A DNA stretch of 64,000 nt from Bacteroidia bacterium (GTDB taxonomy: Bacteria > Bacteroidota > Bacteroidia > B-17B0 > Aurantibacillaceae), in NCBI GenBank assembly GCA_016787895.1, contig JAEUTN010000005.1:124001-188000 (forward strand), written 5' to 3'. Below are positions 13,602-64,000 of the stretch, piece after piece. A program made the translations under genes and the position numbers. The notes beneath the pieces are model-generated. The model saw only the letters and a program-made list of their open reading frames with translations. It searched no databases and was not told where the DNA came from. The first letter of the stretch is position 1, and the number at the start of each line of letters is the position of its first letter.

Positions 13602-14651
13602 ATGAAAAAACATTCTTCACTTATTTGCACCCTGCTTGCAGCAGGCTGGGTGCTTTTTTCCTGTACCAAAAAGCCCAATGTGCCACCTGTATCGGATACA
13701 GAGGTGAAAACAAGCATTGATGCAGCGTTTGCAACGCAGCTGGTATCAGACGTTGAAATGATTTGCAGTTTTATGGGTGAAGACCATTCCCCGGGATACC
13801 AAAAGTTTTATGGTCCGGTGCCGGCTTCTTTATCAAGTTTTTCAATCATCAGGTCCGGGAATCGCATTAGTATCAATTACAATAACACCCTGTGCCACGA
13901 CGGCAAAGTTCGCGACGGATCCATCTGGCTTTATTTTAAAGAAGCCGAGTACGCTACGCATCCTATCACAGGAAACGAAAACTACATTCGCGATTACAAT
14001 TTTACCGGACGCATTACCCTTGAAGAATACAAGGTGGATGGTTGGCTGATTGATAACAAGGATTACGAAAATCCCAATTCAGGCACAAACAACACAACCG
14101 TATTGCTAACCAATTTACGACCCGACGGGAAAACGCCGGTTTCCGGAAATCTGCAATGGACCCTGAGCGGAGGATTTACCATGAGAAAAGATCTGGATTC
14201 TATGGCCTGGAAAGGAACCATTACCAAAACACTGGATAATACCAAGGATACGAAGGTGTTTGCGGCCAATGCCCAGAATCCTATCGACTGGAGTTTGGCA
14301 AAAATTTCTTACCAGGGTGAAGCCAAAGGATATACACCTGGCAATGTTCCGTATACGATCCGTTACAGTGATAAAGCCCCGCTGAGGCGCGATTTCACCT
14401 GTTTTCCCGACAAGGTAAAAGACGTGAGCAACGGCACTACACTTAGCCCAAATTTTCGTGAATTCCACCCCATTACTTCCGGAATTGCCTATTTTACCAC
14501 TGGCAATGCTTACCCGCGGGAAATATATTTTGACAATACCCAGATCTCTTATGGAAGTGACCTGAGTCCTGTTGATTTGCCCGCTCAGTGCGATAACAAA
14601 GCAGCTGTGCAGATAAAGGGTATTTTTTATCCGATCGACCTGAAATATTGA
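13602..14651 (+). CDS. Lipoprotein of unknown family, paralogue 1
   Basis: A 349-residue predicted lipoprotein (lipobox VLFSC, cysteine about residue 21). I do not recognise the family. It is closely related to the next gene over its whole length: shared stretches include LTGNENYIRD-type (ITGNENYIRDYNF), TGRITxEEYKVDGW, MAWKGT, TKTLDNT, KVFAANAQ, GEAKGYTPGNVP and the C-terminal QIKGIFYPIDLK. Cysteines in NTLCHDG, RDFTCFPD and PAQCDNK are conserved in both copies. The extracellular side of a membrane is the likely location. A role cannot be given. Confidence 0.75.
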   Translation: MKKHSSLICTLLAAGWVLFSCTKKPNVPPVSDTEVKTSIDAAFATQLVSDVEMICSFMGEDHSPGYQKFYGPVPASLSSFSIIRSGNRISINYNNTLCHDGKVRDGSIWLYFKEAEYATHPITGNENYIRDYNFTGRITLEEYKVDGWLIDNKDYENPNSGTNNTTVLLTNLRPDGKTPVSGNLQWTLSGGFTMRKDLDSMAWKGTITKTLDNTKDTKVFAANAQNPIDWSLAKISYQGEAKGYTPGNVPYTIRYSDKAPLRRDFTCFPDKVKDVSNGTTLSPNFREFHPITSGIAYFTTGNAYPREIYFDNTQISYGSDLSPVDLPAQCDNKAAVQIKGIFYPIDLKY

Positions 14652-14806
14652 GAATGGAGTAGAGAAGGCCTGTAAGCCTGAACAATTGGTTTTTTTTCTC
14701 TGACCTTTGGCCGGAGGGGGCGGATATTTTCAAAAAACCCGCATTTTTTTGCCGAATTATTAATTTTTGCTAAATTGCAACACGATAAAACAAAACCTGA
14801 TCAAAA

Positions 14807-15871
14807 ATGAAAAAACTGAACATCGGTATTTTTGCCGCTCTTGTTAGCTCAATGGTGTTTTTTGCTTGTAAAAAGGAAGCGAATGTACCCCCAACAGAAG
14901 ATAAGGAAGTTCAAACTTCCATAGATGCCTCTTACGCCACGTTTTTGGTTTCTGACATTGAAATGATAGCCAGTTGGATGGGTGAGGATGCCTCTTTCGG
15001 AGCGCAAAAGTTCTATGCTCCTTCTCCTGTTTCTCAGGGAACGGTAACTGTGGTGAGAAATACCCAAACCAACCGTTTAAGTTTTAACTTTAACAATACT
15101 ACCTGTATGGATGGAAGGCATCGCGATGGCTCCATCTTTATGTTTTTTAAGGAACAAGCTTATTCCACTTATAGCCTCACCGGAAATGAGAACTATATCC
15201 GCGATTTTAATTTCACCGGTCGCATTACCTGCGAAGAGTACAAGGTGGATGGCTGGTTAGTGGACAATAAAGACATCGATAGTGTTGACCCCAACGCAAC
15301 CAATTATCCTATTTTAATCAAAAACCTGAGGCCGAATAACAATACGCCAATCCCGGGTGGTTTGCTGAAATGGTCATTCCAGGGTTCCTTCACCATGAAA
15401 AAGAATCAGGATTCCATGGCCTGGAAAGGTACCTGGACCAAAACACTGGATAACACCAGCAACACAAAAGTATTTGCAGCCAATGCCCAGTCTGCCATTA
15501 ATTGGAGCTTAGCCGTTATCTCTTATGTTGGTGAGGCCAAAGGTTACACTCCGGGAAATGTACCTTTCTCTATGAAATATTATGAGAAATACCCTCTGCG
15601 TCGTGATTTTACTTGTTTCCCTGATAAGGTAGCCGGCGTTGGTCTTTCTCCAACCTCCACCTTAACTCCAGTGATTTCCGAATCACATCCTTTCACCTCG
15701 GGTGTGGCTTCTTTTACAACAGGTACGGCCTATCCAAGAGAGATTTATTACGATAACACCCAGATTACTTTTGGAAGCGAAGAAAGTCCTGTACCATTGC
15801 CATCGCAATGCGATAACAAGGCATCCGTTCAAATCAAAGGCATATTTTATCCGATTGATCTGAAGAAATAA
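14807..15871 (+). CDS. Lipoprotein of unknown family, paralogue 2
   Basis: A 354-residue predicted lipoprotein (lipobox VFFAC, cysteine about residue 21), a tandem duplicate of the gene 155 bases upstream. Both share the same order of blocks and matching cysteines (NTTCMDG, RDFTCFPD, PSQCDNK). The two differ most in the first third and by small insertions such as LSPTSTLTP. The intergenic region carries AT-rich sequence that could hold a separate promoter, and a strong terminator follows this copy but not the first. Function unknown. Confidence 0.75.
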   Translation: MKKLNIGIFAALVSSMVFFACKKEANVPPTEDKEVQTSIDASYATFLVSDIEMIASWMGEDASFGAQKFYAPSPVSQGTVTVVRNTQTNRLSFNFNNTTCMDGRHRDGSIFMFFKEQAYSTYSLTGNENYIRDFNFTGRITCEEYKVDGWLVDNKDIDSVDPNATNYPILIKNLRPNNNTPIPGGLLKWSFQGSFTMKKNQDSMAWKGTWTKTLDNTSNTKVFAANAQSAINWSLAVISYVGEAKGYTPGNVPFSMKYYEKYPLRRDFTCFPDKVAGVGLSPTSTLTPVISESHPFTSGVASFTTGTAYPREIYYDNTQITFGSEESPVPLPSQCDNKASVQIKGIFYPIDLKK

Positions 15872-54969: not shown

Positions 54970-55014
54970 CGGTACCCCCAGCGGTACCCCCAGCGGTACC
55001 CCCAGCGGTACCCC
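54970..55014. repeat. 12-bp tandem repeat (CGGTACCCCCAG)
   Basis: Three full copies of CGGTACCCCCAG and a nine-base partial copy follow one another without interruption. In one frame they would encode a Pro-Pro-Ala-Val repeat. The copies are identical, so the array is recent or actively maintained. Function unknown. Confidence 0.9.
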
Positions 55015-55059
55015 AAAAATCAAAAAAACCTGATTTTACAAGAGTTTTAAGGGGGTTTT

Positions 55060-55075
55060 TGCGGACTGGACGGGA
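55060..55075. repeat. Partial copy of the tRNA-Asp 3' end (direct repeat, possible att site)
   Basis: TGCGGACTGGACGGGA is identical to bases 55241-55256, which cover the 3' end of the tRNA-Asp gene. The rest of the tRNA is absent here. Duplicated tRNA 3' ends are the usual trace of integration by a tyrosine recombinase. No integrase gene remains between the copies. Confidence 0.6.
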
Positions 55076-55231: not shown

Positions 55232-55242
55232 GTATTTATCTG

Positions 55243-55316
55243 CGGACTGGACGGGACTCGAACCCGCGACCTCCGCCGTGACAGGGCGGCATTCTAACCA
55301 GCTGAACTACCAATCC
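55243..55316 (-). tRNA. tRNA-Asp (anticodon GTC)
   Basis: Read on the minus strand, a 74-base cloverleaf: acceptor arms GGATTGG and CCAGTCC with discriminator G, D-arm TAGTTCAGCTGGTTAGA, anticodon loop CTGTCAC with GTC (55280-55282), and T-arm GGGTTCGAGTCCC. CCA is not encoded. A terminator follows. A 16-bp copy of its 3' end is found 180 bases away. Confidence 0.97.
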
Positions 55317-61393: not shown

Positions 61394-63085
61394 TTAATGG
61401 CCGGGATTCTGTTCTTCCGGTTTGAGCCAGATTTCCACCCTTGCCTCATGCTGCCATTCGGAAATACCCGGCCACCCGCCCTGAGAGCAAGCACCGGCGC
61501 CTATGGTTTCTGCATGAATCCCGAATTCAGCCAGATACTTTGCTACTTCTTTGGCCCGCGCCAGCGAAGCTTCCTGTGATTGTTTTCCGTAACCGGCTTC
61601 AGTGGGTGAGTAACCCAGCAAAAAGACCGTTTTGCCCACACAAGGCTCAGTGCCGAGAAAACGTGCGATGCGCCGGATTTTTGCAATTTGTGCCGGCTCC
61701 AGTACAATCCCGGTTGCATCAAAATAAACAGGCAGATTTACTTTTTCACCCCGGTTTACAACCTTCATTACCCTTTCCATGGTCTTCCTGGGCAAACTGT
61801 CCACGCCTCCGGGTTTCATCCCTTTTGAAACTGCAAACGGCAACTCGGGTACGAAACCTGCAGCAATTGCGCTGTCTCCTGCATTTGTCTGGCAATATTC
61901 CAAGAACTGACGGGCAGCAAGCGTTAAGCTATCTGCCCCTGAATATAAATTTACCTCGTATGAAAGAGGATAATCTCCCGATGAAACGGTAAAAACAGAA
62001 GGCTGAACAGAGCCGTTCTGGCCCTGCAATGCCAGAGGTACCGTTTTGCCAGACGCAGAATGGGATATCAGAGCTATGGCATCCTTGTCGGCCAATACTG
62101 CTGAGACCAGACTGTCGTGATTGACATTTCTTTCAGCAATTGCAGAGATTCTCCTGCCGGTAGATGGCAATAGTTCATTCCCGATGATATACCAGGCAGA
62201 CGAAGCGGTATCTGGCAAGATCAACCGCACTTTCCCGCCGTCCTTTACCCCCAGCATTTCCCATTGGGTTATTTCTCCACCCAGCAACTGCATTGCCTGC
62301 TCACGGCTCAGTTCCCGCAAGGGGTTGGACTCATTTACCACAAAGACCCAGGCATCTCTTCCCAGCACCATGCGATTCGAAGGCTGCTGCAATGCTTGAA
62401 AAAATGACTTGTTCCGGCAATATTCCGGCCGCACCCGGCCAGCTGAAACCACCAGATCTGTCTTGTGAACTTCCAACGCCCGAAAACCAGCCACAGTGCC
62501 GGCAGCCTGCAAGAGCACATGCACTTCTTTTTTTGTACCACTCGCACTATCCGTTTTCCAGCCGGTGATGATTTGGTTCCCCTGCGCTGCATTTCGGATC
62601 TGAACTTCCTCACACTTCAGTTGCCTTCTCAGATAACCGTCTACCAGCAAGGGCATCCATTTTGAAACCGCCGGTTGCGATCCGGAAATCCTGAATAAAA
62701 ACTCTTTGGGAACCTCTGAAGCAGATGTGATCCAGGGCTTTTTCCATAGCAACAGCCCAGCAGTCAAAATTGCTGTTAAAACCGCGGCCGAAATCCAAAT
62801 CCATTTCATTCTGAATCCGGATTTAGGGATTTGCAACGGTGCAATTTCCTTGGCAGGTTCTACCGTCTCAGCGAATTGATTTTCGATAGATACAGAAGAA
62901 GCTTCAGGAGCAGTAACTGGCACCGAAACCACAGTCGGTTCTATCCGGATTTCCTCTTTGGGTGGTTCTTCCCGTTTCGGTTCTGTTTCTGCCGTGTTTT
63001 CGGGAAGTGCCTTGCCGCAATAGGTGCAAAACCCAAAGTCAGCCGGATTGATTGTGCCACAATGTTCGCAGGTTCTCCAGTTCAT
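61394..63085 (-). CDS. Zinc-ribbon / membrane / PstS-like / OmpA-domain protein
   Basis: A 563-residue protein with an unusual layout. A four-cysteine zinc ribbon (C6, C9, C20, C23; TCEHCGTINPADFGFCTYC) is followed by an acidic/proline-rich linker, one membrane helix (about 94-114; WIWISAAVLTAILTAGLLLW), a phosphate-binding-protein-like domain (about 125-405; SNPLRELSREQAMQLLGGEI, typical of PstS-type folds) and a C-terminal OmpA domain (about 445-563; LLGYSPTEAG, SLARAKEVAKYLAEFGI, HEARVEIWL). The ribbon would be cytosolic and the rest periplasmic, so the protein could link an inside partner to peptidoglycan. It overlaps the pseudokinase gene by 4 bases. The ligand is unknown. Confidence 0.82.
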   Translation of the reverse strand: MNWRTCEHCGTINPADFGFCTYCGKALPENTAETEPKREEPPKEEIRIEPTVVSVPVTAPEASSVSIENQFAETVEPAKEIAPLQIPKSGFRMKWIWISAAVLTAILTAGLLLWKKPWITSASEVPKEFLFRISGSQPAVSKWMPLLVDGYLRRQLKCEEVQIRNAAQGNQIITGWKTDSASGTKKEVHVLLQAAGTVAGFRALEVHKTDLVVSAGRVRPEYCRNKSFFQALQQPSNRMVLGRDAWVFVVNESNPLRELSREQAMQLLGGEITQWEMLGVKDGGKVRLILPDTASSAWYIIGNELLPSTGRRISAIAERNVNHDSLVSAVLADKDAIALISHSASGKTVPLALQGQNGSVQPSVFTVSSGDYPLSYEVNLYSGADSLTLAARQFLEYCQTNAGDSAIAAGFVPELPFAVSKGMKPGGVDSLPRKTMERVMKVVNRGEKVNLPVYFDATGIVLEPAQIAKIRRIARFLGTEPCVGKTVFLLGYSPTEAGYGKQSQEASLARAKEVAKYLAEFGIHAETIGAGACSQGGWPGISEWQHEARVEIWLKPEEQNPGH

Positions 63086-64000
63086 ACCTTAGGGGTTTTA
63101 CAATACGGACAAGCCTGCAGACTTTGAGGATACCTGTGCCTGCAATGTCTGCACACATAACCGGGGCTTTCAACAATAGGCTGACCACATTTTCCGCAAA
63201 ACTGCGCACTGTATGGCATGATGGCCCCGCATCCGGGATTGGCACAAATTTTATCTTCTGATTCTATCGCTTCCGGTTCAATTGCATTTGGCTCAATCTC
63301 ATTCATTTCAGGCTCCCTCAATGATTCAATGGCTGAAGAATCTTCTGCTTCCACTGTGTCGTTTTCCACCTCTTCCGCCATAGACATGATTAAAGGATTT
63401 TCCGTCCTGTTTTCAAACGGAGAATTGTATTCCGGACCAAGAAATCCTTTCAAAGCCTCGGTGGTATTTGAATAACGTATTTCCTCCTTTTGTGAAAGGA
63501 GTTTCTGCAATCTCGGGGCTAAATAACTGCTGATTTTTATCGTCGGTAATTTCATGGCCATCATCTGACTGAAAATCTCAGACAAGGGCTGCTCAGCAGG
63601 ATTAAAAGGCGCTTTTCCCGATATCATGGTGAAAAGGAGCATTCCAGCAGCATACAAATCGGAATGTATATCCGGTGCAGAATCATCAGAGAGCAACTGC
63701 GGACTGCGAAATGATATGTTTTCGACCCCATAGGAACTCAGACTCGTGGCAAAGCCCAACACTTCTGCCGCATCCCTTGCATAGTCCTGTATGAGCAGCG
63801 ATCCATCGGGTTGTAACCATGTGTTTTCATAATTGATGTTGCCAGCCACTTTTTCCCGGCTGTGCAAATACTCCAGCGTGTGAAGCAAGGTTACAACCGC
63901 CGAAATGGCTGTACTTTCATCCATTCCGCCTTTTTGCCGCAGCTCATCTTTTACACTGCGTCCGCCTGGCATTTCATATACAATTCCCATTAACTCCGGG
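63082..64000 (-). CDS. Zinc-ribbon pseudokinase (Ser/Thr kinase fold); 5' end outside the window
   Basis: The C-terminal 306 residues or so of a Hanks-type kinase-fold protein; the frame is open to base 64000. The MPGGRSVKDEL region, the APE-equivalent ISFRSPQLL, the subdomain IX motif DIHSDLYAAGMLLFTMISGKAPF and later helices are clear. The catalytic HRDxKxxN is changed to AGNINYEN and DFG to DYA, so the chain should not transfer phosphate. After an acidic linker come two C-terminal four-cysteine ribbons (CANPGCGAIMPYSAQFCGKC and CRHCRHRYPQSLQACPYC). The next gene overlaps by 4 bases and also begins with a zinc ribbon, which suggests they work as a pair. Confidence 0.82.
   Translation of the reverse strand, partial: PELMGIVYEMPGGRSVKDELRQKGGMDESTAISAVVTLLHTLEYLHSREKVAGNINYENTWLQPDGSLLIQDYARDAAEVLGFATSLSSYGVENISFRSPQLLSDDSAPDIHSDLYAAGMLLFTMISGKAPFNPAEQPLSEIFSQMMAMKLPTIKISSYLAPRLQKLLSQKEEIRYSNTTEALKGFLGPEYNSPFENRTENPLIMSMAEEVENDTVEAEDSSAIESLREPEMNEIEPNAIEPEAIESEDKICANPGCGAIMPYSAQFCGKCGQPIVESPGYVCRHCRHRYPQSLQACPYCKTPKV

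Follow-up and report, generated by a model that had tools for sequence, protein, structure and literature searches.

At the right end of the window, the whole 64,000-nucleotide stretch of contig C4 analysed here, a gene for a kinase-fold protein (pseudokinase A) and a gene for a protein composed of a zinc ribbon, a transmembrane (TM) segment, a PstS-like domain and an OmpA-like domain (membrane protein A) overlap by 4 bp (ATGA); together we call them pair A. Open reading frames and Pfam matches bear out the overlap and the zinc ribbons on both proteins, which had been noticed in an earlier reading of the letters alone (below, the sequence-only reading), and its claim that the second protein crosses the membrane agrees with a single hydrophobic segment, residues 96-114, lying between the zinc ribbon and the PstS-like domain. 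The pseudokinase gene runs on beyond the window: Pfam recognises Pkinase (7.4e-13) and DZR (2.4e-6) in its in-window part, and on the contig extended past the window the complete protein scores 5.4e-17 for Pkinase and 1.2e-5 for DZR, the latter slightly below cut-off. The order TM, PBP, OmpA in the membrane protein is that of the PBP-OmpA architecture. An AlphaFold2 model made from the single sequence had a pLDDT of 37 and was set aside as unusable.

Table 1. Features of pair A and of the apparent joint in the contig (window positions).
Feature	Position	Strand	Basis or remark
tRNA-Asp, apparent joint of two genomes	55242..55316	-	composition shifts
Membrane protein A, 563 aa: zinc ribbon, TM, PstS-like, OmpA-like	61394..63085	-	ORF and Pfam
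OmpA-like domain, membrane protein A, without the peptidoglycan-contacting Asp	61421..61738	-	OmpA 1.3e-6; motif alignment
PstS-like domain, membrane protein A, phosphate-loop motifs lost	61847..62698	-	PBP_like_2 3.1e-11; TIGR02136 1.1e-12, under cut-off
TM segment, membrane protein A, residues 96-114	62744..62800	-	hydropathy maximum 2.08
N-terminal zinc ribbon, membrane protein A (CEHCG...CTYCG)	63014..63070	-	Zn_Ribbon_1 9.4e-5, under gathering cut-off, CxxC...CxxC pattern clean; kept in paralogue B
Pseudokinase A, C-terminal double zinc ribbon	63082..64000, on to window-equivalent 64233 (C4:187082-188233)	-	383 aa
Double zinc ribbon, pseudokinase A	63100..63246	-	Pfam DZR; cysteines kept in paralogue B
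DFG position of pseudokinase A, DYA, then a two-residue RD insertion	63778..63786	-	aligned with active kinases
HRD position of pseudokinase A, AGN	63838..63846	-	aligned with active kinases

Fetching the contig past base 64000, a check proposed in the sequence-only reading, revealed kdsA, htrA and a second pair (pair B) upstream, on the same strand as pair A; these occupy the place of the active kinase or phosphatase that might have explained the genes as a known system, neither of which is found upstream. In order of transcription the run consists of pseudokinase B, membrane protein B, htrA, kdsA, pseudokinase A and membrane protein A, neighbouring genes being separated by short gaps or overlapping, and a divergent YeeE-like gene lies upstream of it. 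KdsA and the HtrA/Do protease were assigned by curated models; HtrA has an N-terminal membrane anchor, and its sequence shows the catalytic His, Asp and Ser motifs. Because the six genes share one strand and are separated by short gaps, they look like a single operon in a locus related to the envelope. This is less than certain, since htrA may have a promoter of its own in the TAnnTTTG match that immediately precedes it.

Pair B encodes a membrane protein of 518 aa with the same zinc ribbon-TM-PstS-OmpA arrangement and a pseudokinase of 347 aa with a double zinc ribbon (Pkinase 8.6e-22). Both pairs are intact, identical in gene order and tightly spaced (4-bp overlap, 9-bp gap). Identity between the copies is 39% for the pseudokinases and 28% for the membrane proteins; in both comparisons divergence is much greater at the third codon position than at the first two (0.31 v 0.52/0.58; 0.33 v 0.41/0.53), and the proteins have therefore been under constraint since duplication. 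The full set of zinc cysteines is present in all four proteins, and the two copies have in common the kinase Lys38, the alphaC Glu and the stretch EVLGFAT..SSYG.E.ISF.SP.

Alignment with active kinases upheld the description of a kinase fold in which HRD has become AGN and DFG has become DYA, and extended it to copy B. In both copies the glycine-rich loop pattern is gone and the HRD Asp is replaced by Asn; the DFG position reads DYA in A and EFA in B, where the Asp has become Glu. The beta-3 Lys, the alphaC Glu and the Asn that follows HRD are retained. The published definition of a pseudokinase (PMC12599244) joins a kinase fold and loss of the beta-3 Lys, the HRD Asp or the DFG Asp to a lack of phosphotransfer in vitro; by fold and residues the proteins are putative pseudokinases, through the HRD Asp in both copies and the DFG Asp in copy B, the Lys being kept. 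The other two domains have fared similarly. The phosphate-loop motifs of PstS proteins (GSxTxG, GSNTIG in the alignment, and RDxxSGT) are lost in both copies, and the OmpA domain has Pro or Ala in place of its conserved Asp, the Arg being retained; three PBP-OmpA homologues used for comparison, two of them encoded in Bacteroidia genomes and one on a Pseudoalteromonas plasmid, keep the phosphate-loop residues and the OmpA Asp alike. The TIGR02136 score of 47.7 bits lies far below the cut-off of 206.6, a threshold that an intact homologue (P0001) also misses, at 172. In A. baumannii OmpA the same Asp matters for association with peptidoglycan (PMC6572160); conserved Asp and Arg together served here as the mark of a peptidoglycan-binding OmpA domain. 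The domains had been described as solute-binding and peptidoglycan-binding: the folds are indeed there, but with the OmpA Asp and the PstS loop residues lost from both copies the residues give no support to phosphate binding or to peptidoglycan binding of the standard kind.

The origin of this DNA bears on any comparison with relatives. The G+C fraction climbs from about 0.43 to 0.47-0.48 near 55.5 kb of the window; a Markov log-likelihood ratio computed in 1.5-kb bins flips sign from the bin that starts at 54.0 kb to the one that starts at 55.5 kb, two bins that between them enclose the tRNA-Asp gene, and a second Markov model, trained on other genomes alone, jumps at the same place. Tetranucleotide profiles correlate at r = 0.87 within the left part and at 0.64-0.83 between blocks of the right part, against 0.39-0.57 between left and right. 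The left part is collinear with a member of the assembly's genus (G013) and carries the sole GroEL of the genome, 94-99% identical to that of most genus members searched and 88-92% to that of the rest. The right part holds a second RecA, 91% identical to that of G196 and 87% to that of G165, both of another Bacteroidia family (f60), and about 75% to those of the genome's own family; two RecA matches occur in just one further genome among those listed. It also contains second copies of the KdsA and HtrA genes, and most of a stretch of about 90 kb runs collinear with G196; the contamination reported for the assembly is 4.84%. The contig is thus probably chimeric, with its joint at the tRNA-Asp, by far the simplest reading: the right 119 kb (C4 ~179.3-298.4 kb) would come from family f60 and the left part from the assembly's genus. 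A horizontally acquired island of 119 kb is unlikely, since the stretch has recA, glyA, purM, gcvP, lpxB and tRNAs and much of it is collinear with G196. Roughly 8.7 kb at the right end of the window would then belong to a different organism from the genome under which it is filed, so that inferences based on relatives of that genome would be misleading.

Immediately to the left of the tRNA-Asp gene, at 54970-55075, lies a short imperfect tandem repeat (ggtacccccagc), together with a partial copy (gcggactggacggga) of the end of the tRNA gene, as would be left by an integration event or by assembly. Within the right part, C4 ~197.5-205 kb is a 38%-GC stretch unlike either side of the joint, probably a mobile segment. 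CusA/CzcA-type RND efflux genes of 38% GC are seen in the right part at L002:13823-19530; their DNA is 72-76% identical to that of members of the assembly's genus, and they too are probably mobile.

Searches for the pair elsewhere returned no orthologue of the membrane protein among 60 relatives, none of the pseudokinase among 40 genus members and 87 members of the order, and no orthologous pair among 395 genomes of the class, in which both proteins were sought. The four genomes that represent f60 (G165, G196, G300, G415) gave neither a membrane-protein match at 1e-10 nor a kinase match at 1e-30; throughout, scoring covered the top three or four candidates of each genome, under strict thresholds. 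No relatives came from scanning 84,980 species genomes with narrow patterns (short exact peptides), and plasmid and phage searches yielded just PBP-OmpA proteins lacking a zinc ribbon, along with generic kinases and PstS proteins. Absence of the pair from relatives had been named as evidence against a coupled system, and it is indeed absent from every genome searched; the objection is weakened by the apparent origin of the DNA in another, thinly sampled family, and absence from the genus and order says little because the contig is probably chimeric.

The closest known proteins are those annotated as phosphate ABC transporter substrate-binding/OmpA family protein, such as WP_152441739.1 of Pseudoalteromonas sp. 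THAF3 and examples in Bacteroidia genomes G151 and G420. Like membrane protein A, to which they align over the full length, they have an N-terminal TM segment, a PstS-like domain and a C-terminal OmpA domain; unlike both our membrane proteins they lack a zinc ribbon and keep the ligand and peptidoglycan motifs, and in the stretches read no kinase lies beside them. PBPB+OmpA proteins sharing the solute-binding and OmpA domains occur in PspA/Snf7-AAA membrane-stress operons (e.g. OGG56892.1), where a link between membrane stress and the cell wall has been proposed (Ravi et al. 2024, PMC11237479); those systems go with PspA/Snf7, an AAA+ ATPase and an ABC transporter, whereas no PspA/Snf7, AAA+ or ABC transporter gene was seen among the neighbours of our pair that were read. 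In B. subtilis, YdjG/H/I, a system in which zinc ribbons occur (PMC11237479), brings cytosolic PspA to the membrane in a stress-induced complex (PMC8581546), a resemblance to the pseudokinase pair in logic, by analogy, rather than in membership. The best solved relatives of the pseudokinase are the Ser/Thr kinases PknA/PknB, which share its fold; by comparison it has lost HRD, DFG and the glycine loop, has neither TM nor PASTA segments and ends in a double zinc ribbon. Among bacterial pseudokinases, ActPs2 shows the same change of the HRD Asp to Asn, but it is mostly actinobacterial and has Arg for the beta-3 Lys, which copies A and B retain; ActPs3 (MviN) is linked to cell-wall synthesis (PMC12599244). 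The text of that paper has no mention of zinc, ribbon, OmpA or Bacteroid-, and we found no description of the pair in the literature searched. The sequence-only reading knew of no such link from the literature: PBP-OmpA proteins and bacterial pseudokinases are known, while the pair of both is undescribed in the papers searched and comes from a single, chimeric source.

Topology prediction places the proteins on both sides of the inner membrane, beside envelope genes. We tentatively favour, as a reading somewhat short of probable, a non-enzymatic inside-to-outside envelope scaffold or sensor in which the two proteins of each copy work together. The periplasmic PstS-OmpA part, unfit for phosphate or peptidoglycan through the usual residues, would recognise a protein or envelope component; the single TM helix would relay the state of that part to the zinc ribbon in the cytosol and to the pseudokinase, which together would form a docking and switching surface, the ribbons serving as contacts through which the two proteins interact. 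The likely theme is envelope homeostasis, with HtrA in quality control and KdsA in lipopolysaccharide core synthesis. Of the link from cytosol to cell wall put forward earlier, a coupled, non-catalytic pair remains the natural reading and is strengthened by the duplication, but its wall end is undercut by loss of the OmpA peptidoglycan and PstS ligand residues. It is doubtful that this amounts to a new two-protein module controlling envelope quality, duplicated around htrA/kdsA and built from a kinase, a solute-binding protein and an OmpA domain that have all become pure protein-binding parts joined by zinc ribbons; if true, it would be a cytosol-envelope signalling unit made wholly of parts stripped of enzymatic and ligand-binding function, and would widen the view of what bacterial pseudokinases do.

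The PstS-like domain could instead bind a different ligand, so that the membrane protein would sense small molecules on behalf of the cytosolic pseudokinase. The fold is retained at full length and the Asp of the LDGLAVIV stretch survives in copy A, but the former ligand loops (GSQPAV v GTALAG and LPDTASSA v VPDSNTWL in A and B) have no new polar residue set in common, and we consider this unlikely. Control of HtrA by the module, its periplasmic part acting as adaptor or inhibitor and the pseudokinase tying the protease to the cytosolic state, is suggested by the position of htrA between the pairs and by its anchored and seemingly catalytic product; kdsA adjoins equally, adjacency being the whole of the argument, and htrA may be transcribed separately, so that this reading is improbable as well. 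That the pseudokinases bind nucleotide with an unusual activity, as SelO does, instead of purely scaffolding, would suit the retained Lys, Glu and Asn, and bacterial pseudokinases with other activities have been reviewed (PMC12599244); loss of the glycine-rich loop and the DFG Gly, with the HRD Asp changed to Asn and the DFG Asp of copy B to Glu, makes it distinctly unlikely. Decay into functionless remnants, to which motif loss in all three domain types and the lack of orthologues might point, is very improbable for four intact, tightly spaced reading frames with protein-level constraint between copies and conserved cysteines and activation segment. PADLOC matches were rejected as a sign of a defence role, being generic matches to the kinase fold.

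The other Pkinase reading frame of the assembly was dismissed as a relative, being unrelated and on a different contig (C24). It is a 1382-residue open frame (L057) whose N-terminal region is NERD-like; of its two kinase domains the second has HRD and DFN intact, and the frame as a whole resembles kinase-type phage-defence proteins. Elsewhere in the window, at 13602-15871, two adjoining and similar lipoprotein-like reading frames (349 and 354 aa) form an apparent tandem duplication.
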